Of a DNA stretch of 22,133 nucleotides, positions 12,776 to 18,987 are shown in pieces. Each line of letters begins with the position of its first letter. Positions within the stretch are counted from its first letter, which is position 1. A program made the translations under genes and the position numbers. The DNA is taken from positions 1 through 22,133 of the IMG/VR virus record IMGVR_UViG_3300006790_000128; one strand, given 5' to 3'. The notes beneath the pieces are model-generated. The model was not told the DNA's origin. It made no database searches and saw only the letters and a program-made list of their open reading frames with translations. The DNA comes from a virus.

Positions 12776-13156
12776 ATGGCAACAAATGCACAATGGACAG
12801 TAATATTCGATGACAAGCTAATTCAAAAAAATTATGCTGAGAATAAATGGCATATAATTGATGACGCTTCTTTTTGGGCGAATCCAGCTTATTCAAATTT
12901 TTGGGCTGTTCAGTATGGTACAAGTGTAGCAACTGATGAAGTAGAATACAGAGATGAAACTCCTCACTCTACTTGGGCCGACACAGGTGAAAATTTTCAA
13001 TTGTTTATAGATAAATGGGATGAAGCTCATTTAGCATTCTTACAACAAGAATGGGATGAAGCTCCAGGAAATGCATCTACTGGTGTTCTATATGAATCTG
13101 AAGCAGATAAAATAGCTGACAGAGGACCAAGACCTACATCTTACTCTTCTTCATAG
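12776..13156 (+). CDS. Conserved-type tail-region protein, unknown function
   Basis: This 126-residue, acidic protein is rich in Trp and aromatic residues. It includes WTVIFDDKLIQKNYAENKWH, FWAVQYGTS, DEVEYRDETPHSTWADTGEN and a helix FIDKWDEAHLAFLQQEW, and ends RGPRPTSYSSS. The WTVxFDDK...NxWAxQYGTS...DEVExRDETPHxTW...FIDKWDxAHL pattern recurs next to tail fibre genes in marine phages, where it has no named function. A fibre chaperone or small tail protein is a reasonable guess. The ribosome binding site AGGAG (12766-12770) lies at the end of the upstream gene. Its last 23 bases overlap, tail to tail, with the last gene of the minus-strand operon. Confidence 0.65.
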   Translation: MATNAQWTVIFDDKLIQKNYAENKWHIIDDASFWANPAYSNFWAVQYGTSVATDEVEYRDETPHSTWADTGENFQLFIDKWDEAHLAFLQQEWDEAPGNASTGVLYESEADKIADRGPRPTSYSSS

Positions 13157-13622
13157 TATTAAAAGAAACCACTAATCTTTCTTCGTCTGAATCAAGTTTT
13201 TTTACTTGGTGAGGAATATCTGAAGGAAATAATAATAATTTATTTTTTTTAAATTCATAAGAATAAGAACCAAACGATCTGTCATAAAACAGAGTAGGAC
13301 TTTCCCCTTGTATATAGATTATACCCGAATAATCAGAACCTATATGTGTATGCACATCATGAGAATCATCTTTATTATATAATTGAGCCCAATTATTACG
13401 CAATAATAATTCATGACTATCTAATATAGCTATAATTTGTTGTTTAAGATTTTTTAAAATTGGAAAGTTTAAAACATTTAAATATTGATATGTATTTTTT
13501 TGTTCATTGGTTTGAACATCTTTAACTAAAAATAAAATTTGATTAATGTCATCTACAGATATCTCTAAATCATATTCATAGAATGCGTTTTGATACTCAA
13601 ATGGATCAAAAGAATTAGACAC
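13134..13622 (-). CDS. 2-oxoglutarate/Fe(II) oxygenase-like, HxH type (last gene of operon)
   Basis: The 162-residue protein resembles the small 2OG-Fe(II) oxygenase group of the PF13759 type, which couples oxidation of a substrate C-H bond to decarboxylation of 2-oxoglutarate. Visible features are WAQLYNKDDSHDVHTHIGSD with His91 and His93, SGIIYI on the next strand, FPSDIPHQV with distal His138, and ERLVVSFN with Arg149 in the 2OG-binding position. The usual HxD is HTH here. In this group the H-x-H...SGxxYx pattern is normal, so it is probably active, but the metal triad should be checked. The start is GTG 13620-13622, overlapping the upstream gene by 8 bases. No ATG is available. It is the last gene before the convergent tail gene. 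The substrate is unknown. Confidence 0.7.
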   Translation of the reverse strand: MSNSFDPFEYQNAFYEYDLEISVDDINQILFLVKDVQTNEQKNTYQYLNVLNFPILKNLKQQIIAILDSHELLLRNNWAQLYNKDDSHDVHTHIGSDYSGIIYIQGESPTLFYDRSFGSYSYEFKKNKLLLFPSDIPHQVKKLDSDEERLVVSFNTMKKSKM

Positions 13623-14232
13623 TTCGTAAATTCATCCAAGAAGTTGCAATATATTTTTCACCGGATAGCGGTGAATTTCCTCTATGAACATAGGGAAAAG
13701 CTGCAGGCCAAATAACTATTCTACCTGTTTTAGGTTTTACTCTTTTTGAAAAATGTAAAAACTCTGTTTCTCCACCTTCTTCAACATCGTTTAAATAAAT
13801 AGTATAAACCAAAGCTCTAGGTTCATTATGAAAGCCACGACCATGTTCTACATGCCATACATGATAACCTTCAGTAGGTAATGTTTTCTGTATTTTTATA
13901 CAAGTATAGTATAAATCATTTTGATCATATGCATGACAGACACCTGTGTTTTCAATATAATGTTTTAAAGCTATATCGAAATTAGCTAGCATAACTTTTA
14001 AGTCTTCATGCCAGACTACAACATTTAAATGATTACAGAACAACTGTTGATCCTGTTTATATAAAACAGAAGCTTGTTCATAAGACTGTCTATTCATAGT
14101 TTTTTCAAACTTATCTTGGTGTTCAAATAGTTCGATAGCTCTTTTACATTCTTGTTCTGTAATATAGCCATCATAGACTCCAATAAAATTATTAAGACTT
14201 ACTTCTTTTTTTTGATTAAGCTTTTCCATCAT
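13615..14232 (-). CDS. 2-oxoglutarate/Fe(II) oxygenase-like, HxE type
   Basis: This 205-residue protein has a helical N-terminal half and a prolyl-4-hydroxylase-like barrel. EGYHVWHVEHG (residues 121-131) gives His127-x-Glu129, followed by LVYTIYLNDVEEGGETEF, PKTGRIVIWPAAFPYVHRGN with distal His183, and SGEKYIATSWM, where Lys193 stands where Arg or Lys binds the 2OG C5 carboxylate. YLNDVxEGGETEF...FPxxHRGxxPxSGxKYxxTSW is a clear family pattern also seen in cyanophage oxygenases. Glu in place of Asp in the facial triad is found in some active members. Start codons are ATG 14232 or ATG 14229, and the gene overlaps its upstream neighbour by 17 bases. Substrate is unknown: protein, nucleic acid and small-molecule substrates occur in the superfamily. 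Confidence 0.8.
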   Translation of the reverse strand: MMEKLNQKKEVSLNNFIGVYDGYITEQECKRAIELFEHQDKFEKTMNRQSYEQASVLYKQDQQLFCNHLNVVVWHEDLKVMLANFDIALKHYIENTGVCHAYDQNDLYYTCIKIQKTLPTEGYHVWHVEHGRGFHNEPRALVYTIYLNDVEEGGETEFLHFSKRVKPKTGRIVIWPAAFPYVHRGNSPLSGEKYIATSWMNLRSV

Positions 14233-14776
14233 TTTCTTTCAATATTAATCTATTGTCTAATAACCAAGTCACAACGACTTCTCTTGAACTTCCTGAGTTA
14301 TTATTACAATAATGTTCATAACAATCATGAGGTAAGAATGCGACTAGTTTACCTTTCTCTGTTTTAATATGTTTATCATGTCTTGGAAATATTAAATCTG
14401 CATTAGGGTTATTAGTTAAATGTATTACAGTAGATAATACTCTAGGAAAACCTGGCAATTCATTTGCTATTCCATCACCATGAATATTTAAATTATCGTT
14501 TTCACCATATCTATGAAACGTAAAACCACTATCTTGTAGTCTTGATAGATCTAATTTAAAATCAAATTTTAATTTCTTTTCTACTATTTCATTAAACCGT
14601 TTTCTTAATCTATTATCTATATAAACTAATTCTTTTTTATGATCTGAAAACCTCACTGAATTTCCCTGTCTATTAAATTCATATTCTAATGAACTGTCGT
14701 CCATATGAGGATGACATAAATTGCTAATCTCATCACAGAATTGATCAGTAATAAAGTTTTTAAATTCCACAAACAT
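14216..14776 (-). CDS. 2-oxoglutarate/Fe(II) oxygenase-like, HxD type
   Basis: ATG 14776 (minus strand) is chosen because an AAGGAG ribosome binding site lies nine bases upstream. The frame stays open upstream to 14857, inside the halogenase-like gene, but the internal start gives the usual 17-base overlap. The 186-residue product has FTFHRYGENDNLNIHGDG with His99 and Asp101, VLSTVIHLTNNPNADLIFPR on following strands, LVAFLPHDCYEHYC with distal His155, and SSREVVVTWLL with Arg165. That is a complete HxD...H...R set. It differs from the other oxygenases of the operon in its N-terminal half, so it is not a recent duplicate. The target is unknown. Confidence 0.8.
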   Translation of the reverse strand: MFVEFKNFITDQFCDEISNLCHPHMDDSSLEYEFNRQGNSVRFSDHKKELVYIDNRLRKRFNEIVEKKLKFDFKLDLSRLQDSGFTFHRYGENDNLNIHGDGIANELPGFPRVLSTVIHLTNNPNADLIFPRHDKHIKTEKGKLVAFLPHDCYEHYCNNNSGSSREVVVTWLLDNRLILKENDGKA

Positions 14777-15908
14777 AAGTATTGTCTCCTTTCTTATTGA
14801 CTCCATCATACCATAATCTGATATTATAGCTACTCCATAATCCATAACAAATATCAATATTTGTTTTAATTCTTTCTAATAATTCTTCAAAAGGCATATT
14901 TTTAACATGATCTACTACAGCTTTAAAATCTCCCCTTAAATTATTTCTAGCCATTGATTCAGCATGATGCCAAAAAGAAGTTTCATATTTTGAACCATTA
15001 AGATAATGCCACAATATAAAATTCTCTACTTGTTTTACATGTCTATGTACAGTGTTGTTTGTTTCTTCTTTGTTAATTACTTTGTTCATATAATCTGAAT
15101 ATGAAACTGCACATCTATAGTAAGTATCCATGGCTGTTGCTTCTAACGGCTCTAGAAAAAATAATCTATTACCGTTTAACATTACTCTATCATTTACAAC
15201 AGGTTGTTTTTTTACATACTGTTGAAAAGGAAATTTTTTTACTTTATCTACTCCAAGTCTTTCTTGGAAATCTTTTGTTGCTTCTGCCTCTGTTGTAATA
15301 TTTGAATTATATAAATAACCTAAAGATGTTGTATGAGGTAAAGGAATATAGAAACACCACCCATTTGGATGAGCAATTGTTCTAGTCCATTTAACATCAT
15401 CAGGAACACGAGGTAAGTTAGCAAGCAATGCAGTGTTGAGAGGATTCTTTAACATTTCATAGGTATCATCTAAAGCTCCCGGTTTACCTCTACAGTCAAT
15501 AATAAAATCTGAATCTAAAGAATCATATTGCAAAACATGTTCATCTGTTTCTTTCATTTTAATTTTCTTTTTTAATTTACTACATACATAATCTTGAAAT
15601 GCTGCTGGGTGAAAATGAATAGAATGACTAGTTAAAGCAAAGTCATGAAAGATTTTTTCATTTAATTTACCCCAACCCTCATACATAATACCATGCTTCA
15701 TAGTGCATTGAAAATCTGGATCATCTATTTTGTAATGAAATAATTTATGTAAAAGGTTTGGAAATAATAATGTAGTACCTTGTCCTGTAGGTACAGGTTT
15801 TATATTAGAGTCATACAATAACTCTAATTCTATGTTTGGATTAGCATACGCTAAATACATAGCTGTAATACATCCTGCGTTTCCTCTTCCTAATATCGTT
15901 ACTTTCAT
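14760..15908 (-). CDS. Flavin-dependent tryptophan-halogenase-like protein
   Basis: The 382-residue protein (ATG 15908, overlapping the upstream stop as ATGA) resembles PrnA-type flavin halogenases. The N-terminal Rossmann motif is VTILGRGNAGCITA (GxGxxG at 7-12). GQGTTLLFPNLL resembles the GEAT block. A conserved lysine at 71 (QCTMKHGIMYEGW) matches the catalytic Lys of PrnA. NGWCFYIPLPHTTSLGYLY (182-200) resembles the GWxWxIPL block, and FLEPLEATAM (251-260) matches the EPLEST region with Glu256. Halogenases use FADH2, O2 and halide to make HOCl that the Lys holds. It is shorter than PrnA (about 540 residues), and EATA replaces EST-G, so halogenation is uncertain and flavin oxidation of another type is possible. 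A flavin reductase is not seen. Confidence 0.75.
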   Translation of the reverse strand: MKVTILGRGNAGCITAMYLAYANPNIELELLYDSNIKPVPTGQGTTLLFPNLLHKLFHYKIDDPDFQCTMKHGIMYEGWGKLNEKIFHDFALTSHSIHFHPAAFQDYVCSKLKKKIKMKETDEHVLQYDSLDSDFIIDCRGKPGALDDTYEMLKNPLNTALLANLPRVPDDVKWTRTIAHPNGWCFYIPLPHTTSLGYLYNSNITTEAEATKDFQERLGVDKVKKFPFQQYVKKQPVVNDRVMLNGNRLFFLEPLEATAMDTYYRCAVSYSDYMNKVINKEETNNTVHRHVKQVENFILWHYLNGSKYETSFWHHAESMARNNLRGDFKAVVDHVKNMPFEELLERIKTNIDICYGLWSSYNIRLWYDGVNKKGDNTYVCGI

Positions 15909-16432
15909 GGGCAATATATATAATTTAATTTTGAATTAAGTAAAGTATATGTAGCGTCATTAAATGTCTCAACCAATGGCCACCCGGCTAAATTAAAAGA
16001 TGTATTTAACAACAACGGTACTTTAGTTTTTTTATAGAATGCATTTATCAAATCGTAGTAATTAGGATTCTGATCTCTTTTTAAAGTTTGTATTCTACAT
16101 GTGTTATTAACATGTACTACTGCTGGAGTTTCTTGTTTAGCTTTGTCTTTAGCATGAACTGCAAAAGACATAAAAGGAGATTCATCTAGGCTGCCAAAAT
16201 CAAACCAATCATCTTTATGTTCGTGTAAGATAGTAGCTGCTGTAGGTCTCCACCATTGTCGACCTTTTATTTTATTAATAATTTCTTTTGCTTTTTTATT
16301 TCTAGGATCAAATAACATAGATCGATTGCCCAAGGCTCTCGGACCAAACTCAGACGAACCTTGAAATATAACTACAGGTTCTTCTCTTAAAAGTAATTCT
16401 ACAGCTTCTACTTGATTCTTAATTATTCGCAT
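15905..16432 (-). CDS. Carbamoyltransferase C-terminal domain (NodU/TobZ family), separate gene
   Basis: The 175-residue product contains only the C-terminal (YrdC-like) carbamoyltransferase domain. FQGSSEFGPRALGNRSMLFD (23-42) holds the hallmark GPRALGNRS. RQWWRPTAATIL (58-69) and VPLLLNTSFNLAGWPLVETF (138-157) are the usual later blocks, with Trp in place of the common Glu after LAG. In TobZ and NodU this domain makes carbamoyl adenylate from carbamoyl phosphate and ATP. The N-terminal domain is a separate gene at 16907-17791, with a methyltransferase-like gene in between. Start ATG 16432 follows an AGGA-type site and gives a 14-base overlap. An upstream extension inside the other gene is less likely. 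Confidence 0.85.
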   Translation of the reverse strand: MRIIKNQVEAVELLLREEPVVIFQGSSEFGPRALGNRSMLFDPRNKKAKEIINKIKGRQWWRPTAATILHEHKDDWFDFGSLDESPFMSFAVHAKDKAKQETPAVVHVNNTCRIQTLKRDQNPNYYDLINAFYKKTKVPLLLNTSFNLAGWPLVETFNDATYTLLNSKLNYIYCP

Positions 16433-16910
16433 ATTTAATTCCTGTAAATACTGAAGTAATAGTTTCTTGACCATATGTATTAAGCCATCCATAGTCAGTA
16501 CAATTATCACACATCTTTTTTAAATAAAAATAAGCATTAGGGTCCCAGTTTCCATTATCTAAAATAATAGTTTTTTTATAATTAAATTTTTCAATTAAGT
16601 TTTTAGCTACATCTTTTCTTTTGTATGACATAACCTCACTATTATCGATTAGAACATAGTCTACTCCGTCAAGAATATCTGGAAACATATCAAAAGTTAA
16701 TTCATATATAGAAGCATTGTTAGGAAGATTTTCCATCATCTCTAATCTAAATTGATCATTAGATTCTAAAGATATAACTTGTTTAAATATTCTACTAAAA
16801 TAATGAGTAGATCCTCCGCTTCCAAACTCTAATATAATTTTATCTTTAGTATCTTGTTCAGATATCCATTTTAAAAAAGACCAGGTTAATAATGGTGGAC
16901 CTATTCTCAT
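16419..16910 (-). CDS. Class I SAM methyltransferase-like protein
   Basis: This 163-residue protein has a Rossmann-type first half. DKIILEFGSGGSTHYFSRIF contains the motif I loop EFGSGGST, and KQVISLESNDQF carries an acidic residue at the end of the second strand, as needed to bind the ribose of S-adenosylmethionine. VDYVLIDNSEVM (82-93) resembles the strand 4 acidic block, followed by KTIILDNGNW on strand 5. The EFGSGGST...SLExxxxW/F pattern is common in small methyltransferases linked to sugar and lipid tailoring. The gene lies exactly between the two halves of the carbamoyltransferase, with ATGA overlap upstream and 14 bases downstream. Substrate is unknown. A non-catalytic partner of the split enzyme is an alternative. 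Confidence 0.65.
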   Translation of the reverse strand: MRIGPPLLTWSFLKWISEQDTKDKIILEFGSGGSTHYFSRIFKQVISLESNDQFRLEMMENLPNNASIYELTFDMFPDILDGVDYVLIDNSEVMSYKRKDVAKNLIEKFNYKKTIILDNGNWDPNAYFYLKKMCDNCTDYGWLNTYGQETITSVFTGIKYANN

Positions 16911-17791
16911 ATATAATTTGCAACATACATTGCAACTCCTATCGATGTTCCTGCATCATGTGGTATTGGGTCTACAAAAAAATTTATATTAGGATATCTT
17001 TTAACAAGCTTAAAATTATTTAAACAATTTAAAAAGTATCCTCCAGATAAAATAATATTTTTAGCATTAATAAGTTCTGACTTTTCTATTAGTTCACAAG
17101 TTTCAGCGAAGGTTTCTTTTTGAGCTTTATGTGCTAGTTCAACAGCTGTGTAATCTATCTTATCATATTTTTCTTTTACTTCTGCATAAGGAGCTAGTCC
17201 CATGAATTGTCCATACTCTTCACCAAAGCCAGCTTTAATACTAAGGTTAGCATATTTAAGTCCACCTACTATTCTTGAACTAAGTAGTGAATTATTTATG
17301 TCTTTAAATTCTTTATTGAAACAAGTGCTTCTAGCATCAGAGTAATGACCACAAACAAAAGATATGTTATTTTTATTTACATGCCATATAGTATCAGTTT
17401 CTCGATAACTAGGATAAGAAGATGAATGAGCAGCTCCTCCACCATCTCTAACTAATGCCATTGCCTCATCTAAATTAGAATGGTAAAGCCCAGCTATAGC
17501 ATGGTACTTATGATGATTCTCTCTATCAAATGAATAACCTTTATAATCTAATTTATCTAAAATTAATTTTGGTAATTCTTTTTCTGTTCCATCCCAACTA
17601 GTAATAGCAACAAAATCAAAAGAAAAATTTTTAAAAAGATCTAACCCTTTAACTTCATTAAAGGTTTTTATTGTTGGACCAAATCTTTTTTGTTTATTTA
17701 TTCTTTCTTCATTTACAAACATCTTTATTTTAGAGTCTTCTATAAAGCAGTAAGACATGTGGTGTGATATGTTAATTCCTAATATTCTCAT
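16907..17791 (-). CDS. Carbamoyltransferase N-terminal domain (NodU/TobZ family), separate gene
   Basis: This 294-residue product matches the Kae1-like (ASKHA) N-terminal domain. RILGINISHHMSYCFIEDSK is the usual start, and NEERINKQKR follows. NHHKYHAIAGLYHSNLDEAM supplies the metal motif His93-x3-His97, followed by ALVRDGGGA. QFMGLAPYA, NIILSGGYFLNCLNN and FFVDPIPHDAGTSIGVAMY follow, the last with Asp279 as third metal ligand. All expected motifs of this domain are visible. It ends where full-length relatives continue to the C-terminal domain (at 15905-16432 here). Relatives transfer carbamoyl groups to hydroxyls of antibiotics, Nod factors or, in some phages, modified nucleotides. ATGA overlaps join it to genes on both sides. 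Confidence 0.88.
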   Translation of the reverse strand: MRILGINISHHMSYCFIEDSKIKMFVNEERINKQKRFGPTIKTFNEVKGLDLFKNFSFDFVAITSWDGTEKELPKLILDKLDYKGYSFDRENHHKYHAIAGLYHSNLDEAMALVRDGGGAAHSSSYPSYRETDTIWHVNKNNISFVCGHYSDARSTCFNKEFKDINNSLLSSRIVGGLKYANLSIKAGFGEEYGQFMGLAPYAEVKEKYDKIDYTAVELAHKAQKETFAETCELIEKSELINAKNIILSGGYFLNCLNNFKLVKRYPNINFFVDPIPHDAGTSIGVAMYVANYI

Positions 17792-18321
17792 TTGATAAAC
17801 ATTTGAATAGAAACTCTAGGCATTATTGGACTTAAAACAGGATTAACTTTATGGTTAATAGGAGCTTTTATAATTATTAAAGAATTTCCTACAACAGGAA
17901 TAAAGCCATGACCGTTTTTACTATGGAACATAAGTTCTCCACCATGCTGTCTATTCCATCTACGATTAACATAAAAGGTAGCGCCATACTTCCAGATATT
18001 ATCATCATGCCAATTAATACCTGAACCTTTTTTCATAAAATGAATATTAGTTGACATTTCTTTTACATCTTTAAGTTGATAAAATTGATTAAGACGAGTT
18101 AAAACTTTTAATTTTTCAAAAGGAGCGTAGTTAGAAACAGTTACTCTTTCAGGGGGTACGATGTTATTGATTAAATCATCGTCCCATATACCTTTAGATG
18201 AGTGTAAGTTTATTGAGGCACGTTGTTTAAAAATAGCATTATGAATACCTTGATATGTTTCTTGATCTAAGAAATTTTGTATATAATACAATTGGTCGGG
18301 TATTTGGTATATCAATTTCAT
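17788..18321 (-). CDS. 2-oxoglutarate/Fe(II) oxygenase-like, HxD type
   Basis: This encodes 177 residues from ATG 18321, which overlaps the upstream TGA (ATGA). The frame is open further upstream, but this start gives the same tight coupling as the other operon genes. The barrel shows NIHFMKKGSGINWHDDNIWK with His105 and Asp107, YGATFYVNRRWNRQHGGELM, IIIKAPINHKVNP with distal His157, and PRVSIQMFIK with Arg169. This is a complete HxD...H...R set of the prolyl-4-hydroxylase-like type, here with the common FYxNxxWxxxxGGEL strand pair. The N-terminal part is a helical extension (YQIPDQLYYIQNFLDQETYQ). The function is hydroxylation or another 2OG-driven oxidation of an unknown substrate. Confidence 0.82.
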   Translation of the reverse strand: MKLIYQIPDQLYYIQNFLDQETYQGIHNAIFKQRASINLHSSKGIWDDDLINNIVPPERVTVSNYAPFEKLKVLTRLNQFYQLKDVKEMSTNIHFMKKGSGINWHDDNIWKYGATFYVNRRWNRQHGGELMFHSKNGHGFIPVVGNSLIIIKAPINHKVNPVLSPIMPRVSIQMFIK

Positions 18322-18929
18322 TTTGGAAACCCATCGTGTTTTGAGTGTAGAAAACAATTAATAGCATAACGAGTGCCTTTGGTAATAGGCTCTGTTCCGT
18401 GTATCCATATAGGTTCAGCAGGAAATATCATAGCATCCCCGGTCTTATAAGACTCTTTTATTCTGCCATTAAAGAATGTAAAATCTCCTCCTTCATAGTC
18501 TTCATTTAAATTTAAAGTACAAGATCCTCGAGTTCTCCAATCTACATCAGTATGGTCTTTGATATATTGTCCTTCTTCATATCTTAGTATTCTTACGTTT
18601 TGACTAGCGTTTAAATTATGGTCAGTAAAAGATGGACATATTCCTTTAGCCTTAATATATAATACATAATTAGCTATCATAATGTTAATAAATTGAGAGG
18701 CCGTTTCTAAAGCCCACTTAATATCTTCATTAGGATTTAGGGTTCGAGAAAGATTTATACATTGGAAATTATCTACTTCTCTTTTATCAGTCTCATACTT
18801 ATAGCTTTCTTCAGTAAGATATAATTCAGGGTATTTTTCAAATACTTCTATTAATTTTTGACAGATATTCTTAGGAACTAATCCATTAATCCTATATTTT
18901 AGATCCGATATTTTGTGCTCATAAGCCAT
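18318..18929 (-). CDS. Prolyl-4-hydroxylase-like 2-oxoglutarate/Fe(II) oxygenase (first gene of operon)
   Basis: The 203-residue product from ATG 18929 has a helical N-terminal half and a clear P4H-type barrel. VRILRYEEGQYIKDHTDVDW contains His126 and Asp128, and CTLNLNEDYEGGDFTFF is the usual LNxxxxGGxFxF strand pair. YKTGDAMIFPAEPIWIHGTE contains distal His177, and KGTRYAINCFLHS contains Arg187 for 2OG binding. Every catalytic residue is present, so it is likely active. The open frame extends to 18971, but a promoter-like sequence occupies that part, which favours the inner ATG. As first gene of the operon it may be the most highly made. Substrates of relatives include prolyl residues and free amino acids; here it is unknown. 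Confidence 0.85.
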   Translation of the reverse strand: MAYEHKISDLKYRINGLVPKNICQKLIEVFEKYPELYLTEESYKYETDKREVDNFQCINLSRTLNPNEDIKWALETASQFINIMIANYVLYIKAKGICPSFTDHNLNASQNVRILRYEEGQYIKDHTDVDWRTRGSCTLNLNEDYEGGDFTFFNGRIKESYKTGDAMIFPAEPIWIHGTEPITKGTRYAINCFLHSKHDGFPK

Positions 18930-18959
18930 TAGATTGTATCTTTCATTCTCTATATATTT

Positions 18960-18987
18960 AATATATAACATAAATCATATATTTCAA
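18960..18987 (-). promoter_or_regulatory. Candidate promoter of the minus-strand operon
   Basis: On the minus strand, TTGAAA (18987-18982), a 16-base spacer and TATATT (18965-18960) match sigma-70 boxes at five of six positions each. The site lies about 30 bases upstream of the chosen ATG 18929 and next to the divergent + strand gene starting at 18998. The region is very AT-rich, so chance matches are possible. Confidence 0.45.

Follow-up and report, generated by a model that had tools for sequence, protein, structure and literature searches.

What is to be made of a carbamoyltransferase whose two catalytic domains are encoded by separate genes, with a third gene standing between them? The question is raised by a 22,133-nucleotide stretch of viral DNA (positions 1 to 22,133 of IMG/VR virus record IMGVR_UViG_3300006790_000128, an incomplete phage genome; hereafter the window), in which the genes for a Kae1-like half (CtN) and a YrdC-like half (CtC) flank a methyltransferase-like gene (MT). 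We consider it probable that CtN and CtC constitute a two-subunit, translationally coupled class III O-carbamoyltransferase of an HTVC023P-type pelagiphage, and that MT is an independent tailoring gene lodged at their junction. The elements at issue are as follows.

16907..17791, minus strand: CtN, Kae1-like (carbamoyl-transfer) half of a class III carbamoyltransferase, 294 amino acids (Pfam PF02543, phrog_1601, model)
16907-16910, minus strand: ATGA stop/start overlap of CtN and MT (sequence)
16419..16910, minus strand: MT, class I S-adenosylmethionine (SAM)-dependent O-methyltransferase-like gene between the halves, 163 amino acids (AlphaFold2 model, structure matches)
16419-16432, minus strand: 14 nucleotides shared by the end of MT and the start of CtC (sequence)
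15905..16432, minus strand: CtC, YrdC-like (carbamoyl-AMP-forming) half, 175 amino acids, with the motif GPRALGNRS (Pfam PF16861)

The two halves of the carbamoyltransferase

Inspection of the reading frames confirmed that the two halves are separate, intact genes on the minus strand. CtN matches the last 50 positions of the Pfam profile Carbam_trans_N (E 1.2e-10) and about the first 210 positions of phrog_1601 (E 8.5e-38). Its AlphaFold2 model, computed from a 52-row alignment with a predicted local distance difference test score (pLDDT) of 94.2, has TobZ as its top solved-structure match (Foldseek E 3.7e-14) and superimposes on TobZ 1-353 with a Z score of 23.7 and a root-mean-square deviation (rmsd) of 2.7 over 251 residues, while TsaD/Kae1 chains score lower, with Z of about 18. 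CtN is thus modelled as a complete Kae1-like domain of the TobZ type. The original prediction had named His93, His97 and Asp279 as metal ligands; all three are present, and comparison with GdmN adds D116 as the fourth, H93, H97, D116 and D279 corresponding to H133, H137, D156 and D333, which are given as the Fe ligands of GdmN in the part of PMC9633730 that treats this site. The four residues are invariant in 52/52 rows of alignment A5, so that CtN has the two His and two Asp ligands of the Kae1-like domain that marks a class III carbamoyltransferase. They are also kept in 109 of the 110 open reading frames (ORFs) of the N type alone that we collected, the sole exception being an 85-residue fragment; H10, at the catalytic-histidine position, is present in 103 of these 110.

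The YrdC-like domain is found in CtC, which covers positions 2-162 of 170 of the Pfam profile Carbam_trans_C (PF16861, E 1.5e-55) and positions 360-521 of phrog_1601 (E 4.8e-66), aligns to VtdB 424-587 (E 4.4e-31) and contains the predicted GPRALGNRS motif. The mechanically called ORF opens at GTG 16510, but homologues open at ATG 16432, and we therefore placed the start of CtC at 16432. The resulting 14-nucleotide overlap of MT and CtC recurs in the related loci L005, L008, L010, L011 and L012. An AGGA Shine-Dalgarno-like site for CtC lies at 16440-16443, inside MT.

The break falls at the natural linker between the domains, as had been proposed: CtN covers TobZ 1-353 and CtC aligns with TobZ 405-555. 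Neither CtN nor CtC has an equivalent of about 40 linker residues of TobZ (354 to about 392, by extrapolation), and neither half contains a dimerisation domain of the GdmN type. CtN and CtC together therefore resemble the class III O-carbamoyltransferases TobZ, GdmN, VtdB, NovN and NodU (PF02543 plus PF16861) in having both catalytic domains, the metal ligands and GPRALGNRS, but differ from TobZ-type enzymes, which are one chain. By analogy with the TobZ and GdmN chemistry set out in part of PMC9633730, CtC would convert carbamoyl phosphate and ATP to carbamoyl-AMP, and CtN, physically paired with CtC, would pass the carbamoyl group to an acceptor hydroxyl by means of the H93/H97/D116/D279 site. 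Such a division of labour would resemble that between TsaC and TsaD (YrdC and Kae1) in the synthesis of N6-threonylcarbamoyladenosine, which are likewise separate YrdC-like and Kae1-like proteins; these act on other substrates, however, and CtN is clearly nearer to TobZ than to TsaD.

Conservation and age of the split

The order CtN-MT-CtC was found, at 68-95% protein identity, in six independent IMG/VR metagenome contigs (L005, L006, L008, L010, L011 and L012), which excludes an assembly error; two further loci of the same type (L007, L017) are cut at contig ends. The split itself is far more general than this one arrangement. The usual, though not defining, one-chain arrangement of class III enzymes is replaced by two genes in the window and in the 82 distinct split pairs counted among the sequences collected (pair counts here and below refer to distinct CtN proteins). 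Split pairs are also present in the isolate cyanophage genomes S-RIM44 and Sf-FP1. In each of the 168 loci collected, hidden Markov models built from the first members identified a carbamoyltransferase (Ct) or MT gene. Among the 157 complete Ct sequences, 87 are split in the order N-C, 8 are split in the order C-N and 62 are single-chain, proportions that do not represent natural frequency, as split members (A2, A3) supplied the queries and the number of loci was capped at 80.

A quick-type tree was computed from 118 non-redundant rows, among them 56 single-chain homologues, after repeats (L001, L006, L016), open-ended genes and near-copies at an identity of at least 88% had been left out. In this tree 53 of the 55 N-C rows form one clade with a support of 100 in the Shimodaira-Hasegawa-like approximate likelihood ratio test (SH-aLRT), and addition of six C-N rows gives a 59-row clade (SH-aLRT 99). 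The arrangement changes only five times on the tree, compared with a mean of 44.1 after shuffling, and the three branches flagged as long all lie outside the 59-row clade. The remaining N-C rows, L124 and L166, and the C-N row L004 group elsewhere together with two single-chain rows, which implies at least two origins or reversals of the split.

The halves also travel together. Of the 110 N-only ORFs, 99 adjoin a split C gene, 2 lie at contig edges and 9 (the 85-residue fragment among them) have a single-chain enzyme as neighbour, while 99 of the 100 C-only ORFs adjoin an N gene and the other one, in L017, starts at a contig edge; these ORF counts include contigs that were fetched twice. Across 32 loci the distance matrices of the N and C halves correlate at 0.75, as against 0.60 (N) and 0.61 (C) with that of a tail gene. 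The ratio of nonsynonymous to synonymous substitution rates (dN/dS) is 0.13-0.29 for CtN and 0.11-0.28 for CtC. That a single chain was broken up by decay, by a frameshift or in assembly is a practically negligible possibility: we found no support for it, the same tree containing 56 single-chain homologues, and it is refuted by dozens of independent contigs and two isolate genomes that show the same split, as well as by purifying selection on both halves and retention of the ligands. Taken together, these results establish the split as old, as selected rather than decayed (in agreement with the original prediction), and as general in a clade of mostly marine phages.

As a record, the split is not new to databases. 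PHROG 1601 and 20469 are both annotated 'Nol-like carbamoyltransferase', and phrog_20469 (181 positions) matches CtC alone; S-RIM44 and Sf-FP1 contain two adjacent genes that are both annotated as carbamoyltransferase, but in the order C then N and with no methyltransferase between them. A literature search for split or two-component carbamoyltransferases, with most subscription journals outside its reach, found no discussion of the arrangement.

Several collected loci showed other combinations of the domains. A single-chain carbamoyltransferase of about 500 residues accompanies a split pair on the same contig in L054, L055, L093 and L100, and three single-chain genes stand in tandem in L109 (3757-9220). 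Two N-type genes are found with one C domain in L124 and L166, and extra stand-alone N genes lie beside a single-chain enzyme in L114, L122, L128, L134, L143, L160 and L161. The extra N genes would fit several transferase subunits that share one carbamoyl-AMP-making domain, that is, halves used as modules. A scan of the genome_contigs collection for cellular relatives of CtN, conducted with narrow peptide patterns, gave five loci, of which L174-L176 are single-chain and L172 and L173 are split N-C. The latter two are on contigs of metagenome-assembled genomes labelled Maricaulis and Sphingobacteriales, with neighbours that look phage-like by eye; they are probably phage DNA binned with bacteria, and were not counted as cellular.

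The methyltransferase gene at the junction

Family-level sequence searches of MT were empty. There was no Pfam or PHROG match, all NCBIfam rows were below threshold and at chance level, no relative was found among 50,697 phage records at E 0.1 or confirmed in genome_contigs, and a profile search of the PDB gave weak rows at chance level, the sensible one being 3cvo (E 0.42). The assignment therefore required a structure model. The AlphaFold2 model (10 sequences, pLDDT 82) matched 270 PDB chains at E of 0.001 or below in a Foldseek search, the top one being 6jcl, cofactor-bound Rv0187 (E 1.9e-6), and on re-alignment catechol-O-methyltransferase (COMT) was best, with Z 15.9 and rmsd 2.8 over 153 residues. 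These matches give the model a Rossmann-like class I methyltransferase fold, in line with the original prediction of a methyltransferase-like gene, with residues 5-162 sharing the fold of COMT and Mg-dependent O-methyltransferases at 16-19% identity.

Class I SAM-dependent methyltransferases have a glycine-rich SAM motif I and an acidic residue at the end of strand 2; correspondingly, LEFG[SA]GGST and E49 are present in 10/10 rows of the MT alignment (A4). D89, D118 and N119 are likewise invariant in 10/10 rows, with a spacing that we take to resemble that of the COMT metal ligands D141, D169 and N170. The catalytic lysine of COMT is K144. In MT the position three residues past D89 is E or V, so that the sequence alignment (as distinct from a residue-level structural one) gives no evident counterpart of this lysine. 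On its modelled fold and motifs, MT is predicted to be a COMT-like class I SAM-dependent O-methyltransferase.

The original prediction had also suggested that MT might serve as a linker or as a third component of the enzyme. As it had stated, overlaps couple MT to the genes on both sides; they measure 4 and 14 nucleotides. This position, together with low dN/dS, would suit a dedicated subunit that keeps the two halves joined and contributes a methylation coupled to their reaction. We regard this as very unlikely, since the carbamoyltransferase is regularly found without MT. In 62 of the 72 distinct N-C pairs the halves overlap directly, with nothing between them. The other ten comprise six with MT, two with unrelated genes (a 2-oxoglutarate (2OG) oxygenase in L032 and a pyrimidine-dimer-glycosylase-like gene, PF03013, E 1.8e-16, in L166), one with a 57-nucleotide gap (L104) and one with 2 nucleotides (L116). 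The gene in L032 (6908-7528; 2680-3300 in L033) is of the 2OG-FeII_Oxy_5 type (PF13759, E 5.9e-15) and overlaps CtN; the insertion point is the C-gene start codon, and L037, the tree neighbour of L032, has no insert. It is an independent insertion at the CtN/CtC junction.

The clearest case is a matched pair of loci. L009, whose CtN is 98% identical to that of MT-bearing L008 (synonymous divergence, dS, 0.035), has no MT, and its two intact halves are joined by ATGA. In L008 the MT stretch is flanked on both sides by ATATGA, and the empty site of L009 lies at that same ATATGA, so that both loci can be explained by precise loss or gain of the stretch between short repeats. As L010, L012, L005 and the window carry MT outside this pair, loss in L009 is the simpler history; replacement by recombination is a possible alternative to loss. 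MT homologues also occur without an adjoining Ct gene, in the head region of related phages (L018-L021). In L019 MT directly follows a PF13640 2OG gene 50% identical to the oxygenase gene Ox17788 that precedes CtN in the window, and the same gene is present in L020, while the homologues in L018 and L021 have other neighbours. In L179 (886-4259) an MT homologue (44%) stands in the order 2OG-like, MT, 2OG-like, flavoenzyme, 2OG-like, with no Ct halves, and this cluster adjoins the same tail gene as the operon of the window.

Some observations pull in the opposite direction. The contigs of L018-L021 and L179 are only 4-8 kb long, so a Ct pair could sit elsewhere in those genomes. Of the three genes, MT shows the strongest constraint, with a dN/dS of 0.05-0.14 among Ct-associated copies (a rough value, some dS being near 1), and it is kept in 6/7 complete distinct loci of its clade (the window, L005, L008, L010, L011 and L012, as against L009); this constraint and retention would fit a real partnership. 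Moreover, as the Shine-Dalgarno-like AGGA of CtC lies inside MT, MT may matter for the translation of CtC in these loci. Even so, MT is removable cargo and not a required linker of the carbamoyltransferase, and it may contribute a further step to the pathway that the carbamoyltransferase serves. Two further proposals about its history were set aside: that CtN-MT-CtC is a conserved unit across split phages, as only the clade of the window has MT in that position, and that MT arrived recently by transfer, as its dS between loci (0.38-1.0) is similar to that of neighbouring genes. In the reading of MT as an independent gene, it would be a self-contained SAM-dependent O-methyltransferase of a tailoring cluster of 2OG oxygenases and a flavoenzyme, inserted seamlessly at the ATGA junction of an already split pair in the ancestor of the window's group, and could be lost again exactly, as in L009.

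The surrounding operon and the putative acceptor

The three genes belong to a nine-gene minus-strand operon with plus-strand tail genes on either side. Its other elements are the following.

18318..18971, minus strand: 2OG-Fe(II) oxygenase gene, first in the operon (PF13640, E 3.2e-11)
17788..18357, minus strand: Ox17788, 2OG-Fe(II) oxygenase-like gene upstream of CtN (PF13640, E 4.8e-8)
17788-17791, minus strand: ATGA overlap of Ox17788 and CtN (sequence)
15905-15908, minus strand: ATGA overlap of CtC and the flavoenzyme gene (sequence)
14760..15908, minus strand: flavin-dependent tryptophan-halogenase-like gene (flavoenzyme) downstream of CtC (PF04820, E 5.8e-36; phrog_2928, E 4e-77)
14216-14857, minus strand: 2OG-Fe(II) oxygenase-like gene (Pfam match below the curated cut-off)
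13615-14232, minus strand: 2OG-Fe(II) oxygenase-like gene, homologue of HTVC027P gp73 (68%, blastp; PF13640/PF13759)
13134-13622, minus strand: 2OG-Fe(II) oxygenase-like gene, homologue of HTVC027P gp72 (57%, blastp; PF13640/PF13759)

The capsid protein of the window has 80.7% identity to its counterpart in Pelagibacter phage HTVC027P and 70.3% to the HTVC023P one, and capsid and tail gene homology and synteny place the phage in the HTVC023P type. PolA, the marker used in the authors' phylogeny of this type, was not seen among the window genes examined, no search having been aimed at it. The corresponding place among the HTVC027P tail genes is occupied by a minus-strand trio, gp72-74, of the 2OG type where matched. 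A tblastn search with CtN, MT, CtC, the flavoenzyme and Ox17788 found no homologue in the examined regions of HTVC027P, HTVC023P and 023Pt_psg01. Clustered 2OG oxygenases and thymidine-hypermodification genes are described in a study of 80 uncultivated genomes of the HTVC023P type (PMC9599517), and the words 'carbamoyl' and 'methyltransferase' are absent from its main text. The operon itself has recombined: the CtN of L005 (4578-5465) is 94% identical to those of L008/L009 and 88% to that of the window, while the adjoining flavoenzyme is 97% identical to that of the window.

As for the acceptor, hydroxylated virion-protein residues or a small metabolite seem to us better candidates than DNA, and the 2OG oxygenases would make the acceptor that the other enzymes share. 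Modification of phage DNA, with CtN and CtC carbamoylating a hydroxymethyl-pyrimidine, is in our view unlikely. It has a precedent in the MetaGPA enzyme, a phage class III carbamoyltransferase that acts on 5-hydroxymethylcytosine; that enzyme, however, is described in the relevant part of PMC8670742 as a single 63-kDa ORF on a contig with a thymidylate synthase, and reads GPRALCNT where CtC has GPRALGNR. Clades V, VIII and IX of HTVC023P-type pelagiphages carry the thymidine-hypermodification genes, according to part of PMC9599517, and the S-RIM44 pair adjoins the thymidylate synthase ThyX, but no thymidylate synthase or dCMP hydroxymethylase was found among the ten operon-region genes scanned in the incomplete genome of the window, where the operon lies among tail genes and includes PF13640/PF13759-type oxygenases.

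The acceptors that we favour would suit a pathway in which the whole operon tailors virion-protein side chains or a small metabolite by hydroxylation (2OG oxygenases), oxidation or halogenation (flavoenzyme), O-methylation (MT) and O-carbamoylation (CtN and CtC). This is compatible with the two-subunit reading, and we put it forward as a serious candidate that stops somewhat short of being probable. Gene content and ATGA coupling speak for it, as does L179, where MT is flanked by 2OG-like genes and a flavoenzyme. 2OG-like ORFs were found at no more than 3 kb in 31/35 N-C loci for which both flanks were present, compared with 13/42 single-chain and 0/4 C-N loci, a comparison of little weight, as it used a home-made profile and single-chain controls that were not habitat-matched, and as 2OG genes are common in marine phages regardless of their neighbours. 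QhpG is a peptide tryptophan hydroxylase. It is the best NCBIfam row of the flavoenzyme at 14760-15908, a weak similarity (24.7 bits against a model cut-off of 240) that leaves halogenation and hydroxylation both as candidate reactions. A more specific scheme, which we hold to be doubtful, would have a small CtC subunit serve one or more separate Kae1-like acceptor subunits, and would let genes for further tailoring enzymes (an O-methyltransferase or a 2OG oxygenase) settle at the ATGA junction, giving an exchangeable pathway by which hydroxylated tail or capsid residues are decorated.

Collectively, our results bear on both the enzyme and the phage. The characterised class III carbamoyltransferases that we encountered are single chains, and an old natural split suggests that adenylation and transfer can be carried out by separate proteins; it makes the passing of carbamoyl-AMP between them testable with parts of only 175 and 294 residues. 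For the phage, the matched pair L008 and L009 shows that a gene can be gained or lost without a scar inside a coupled operon.

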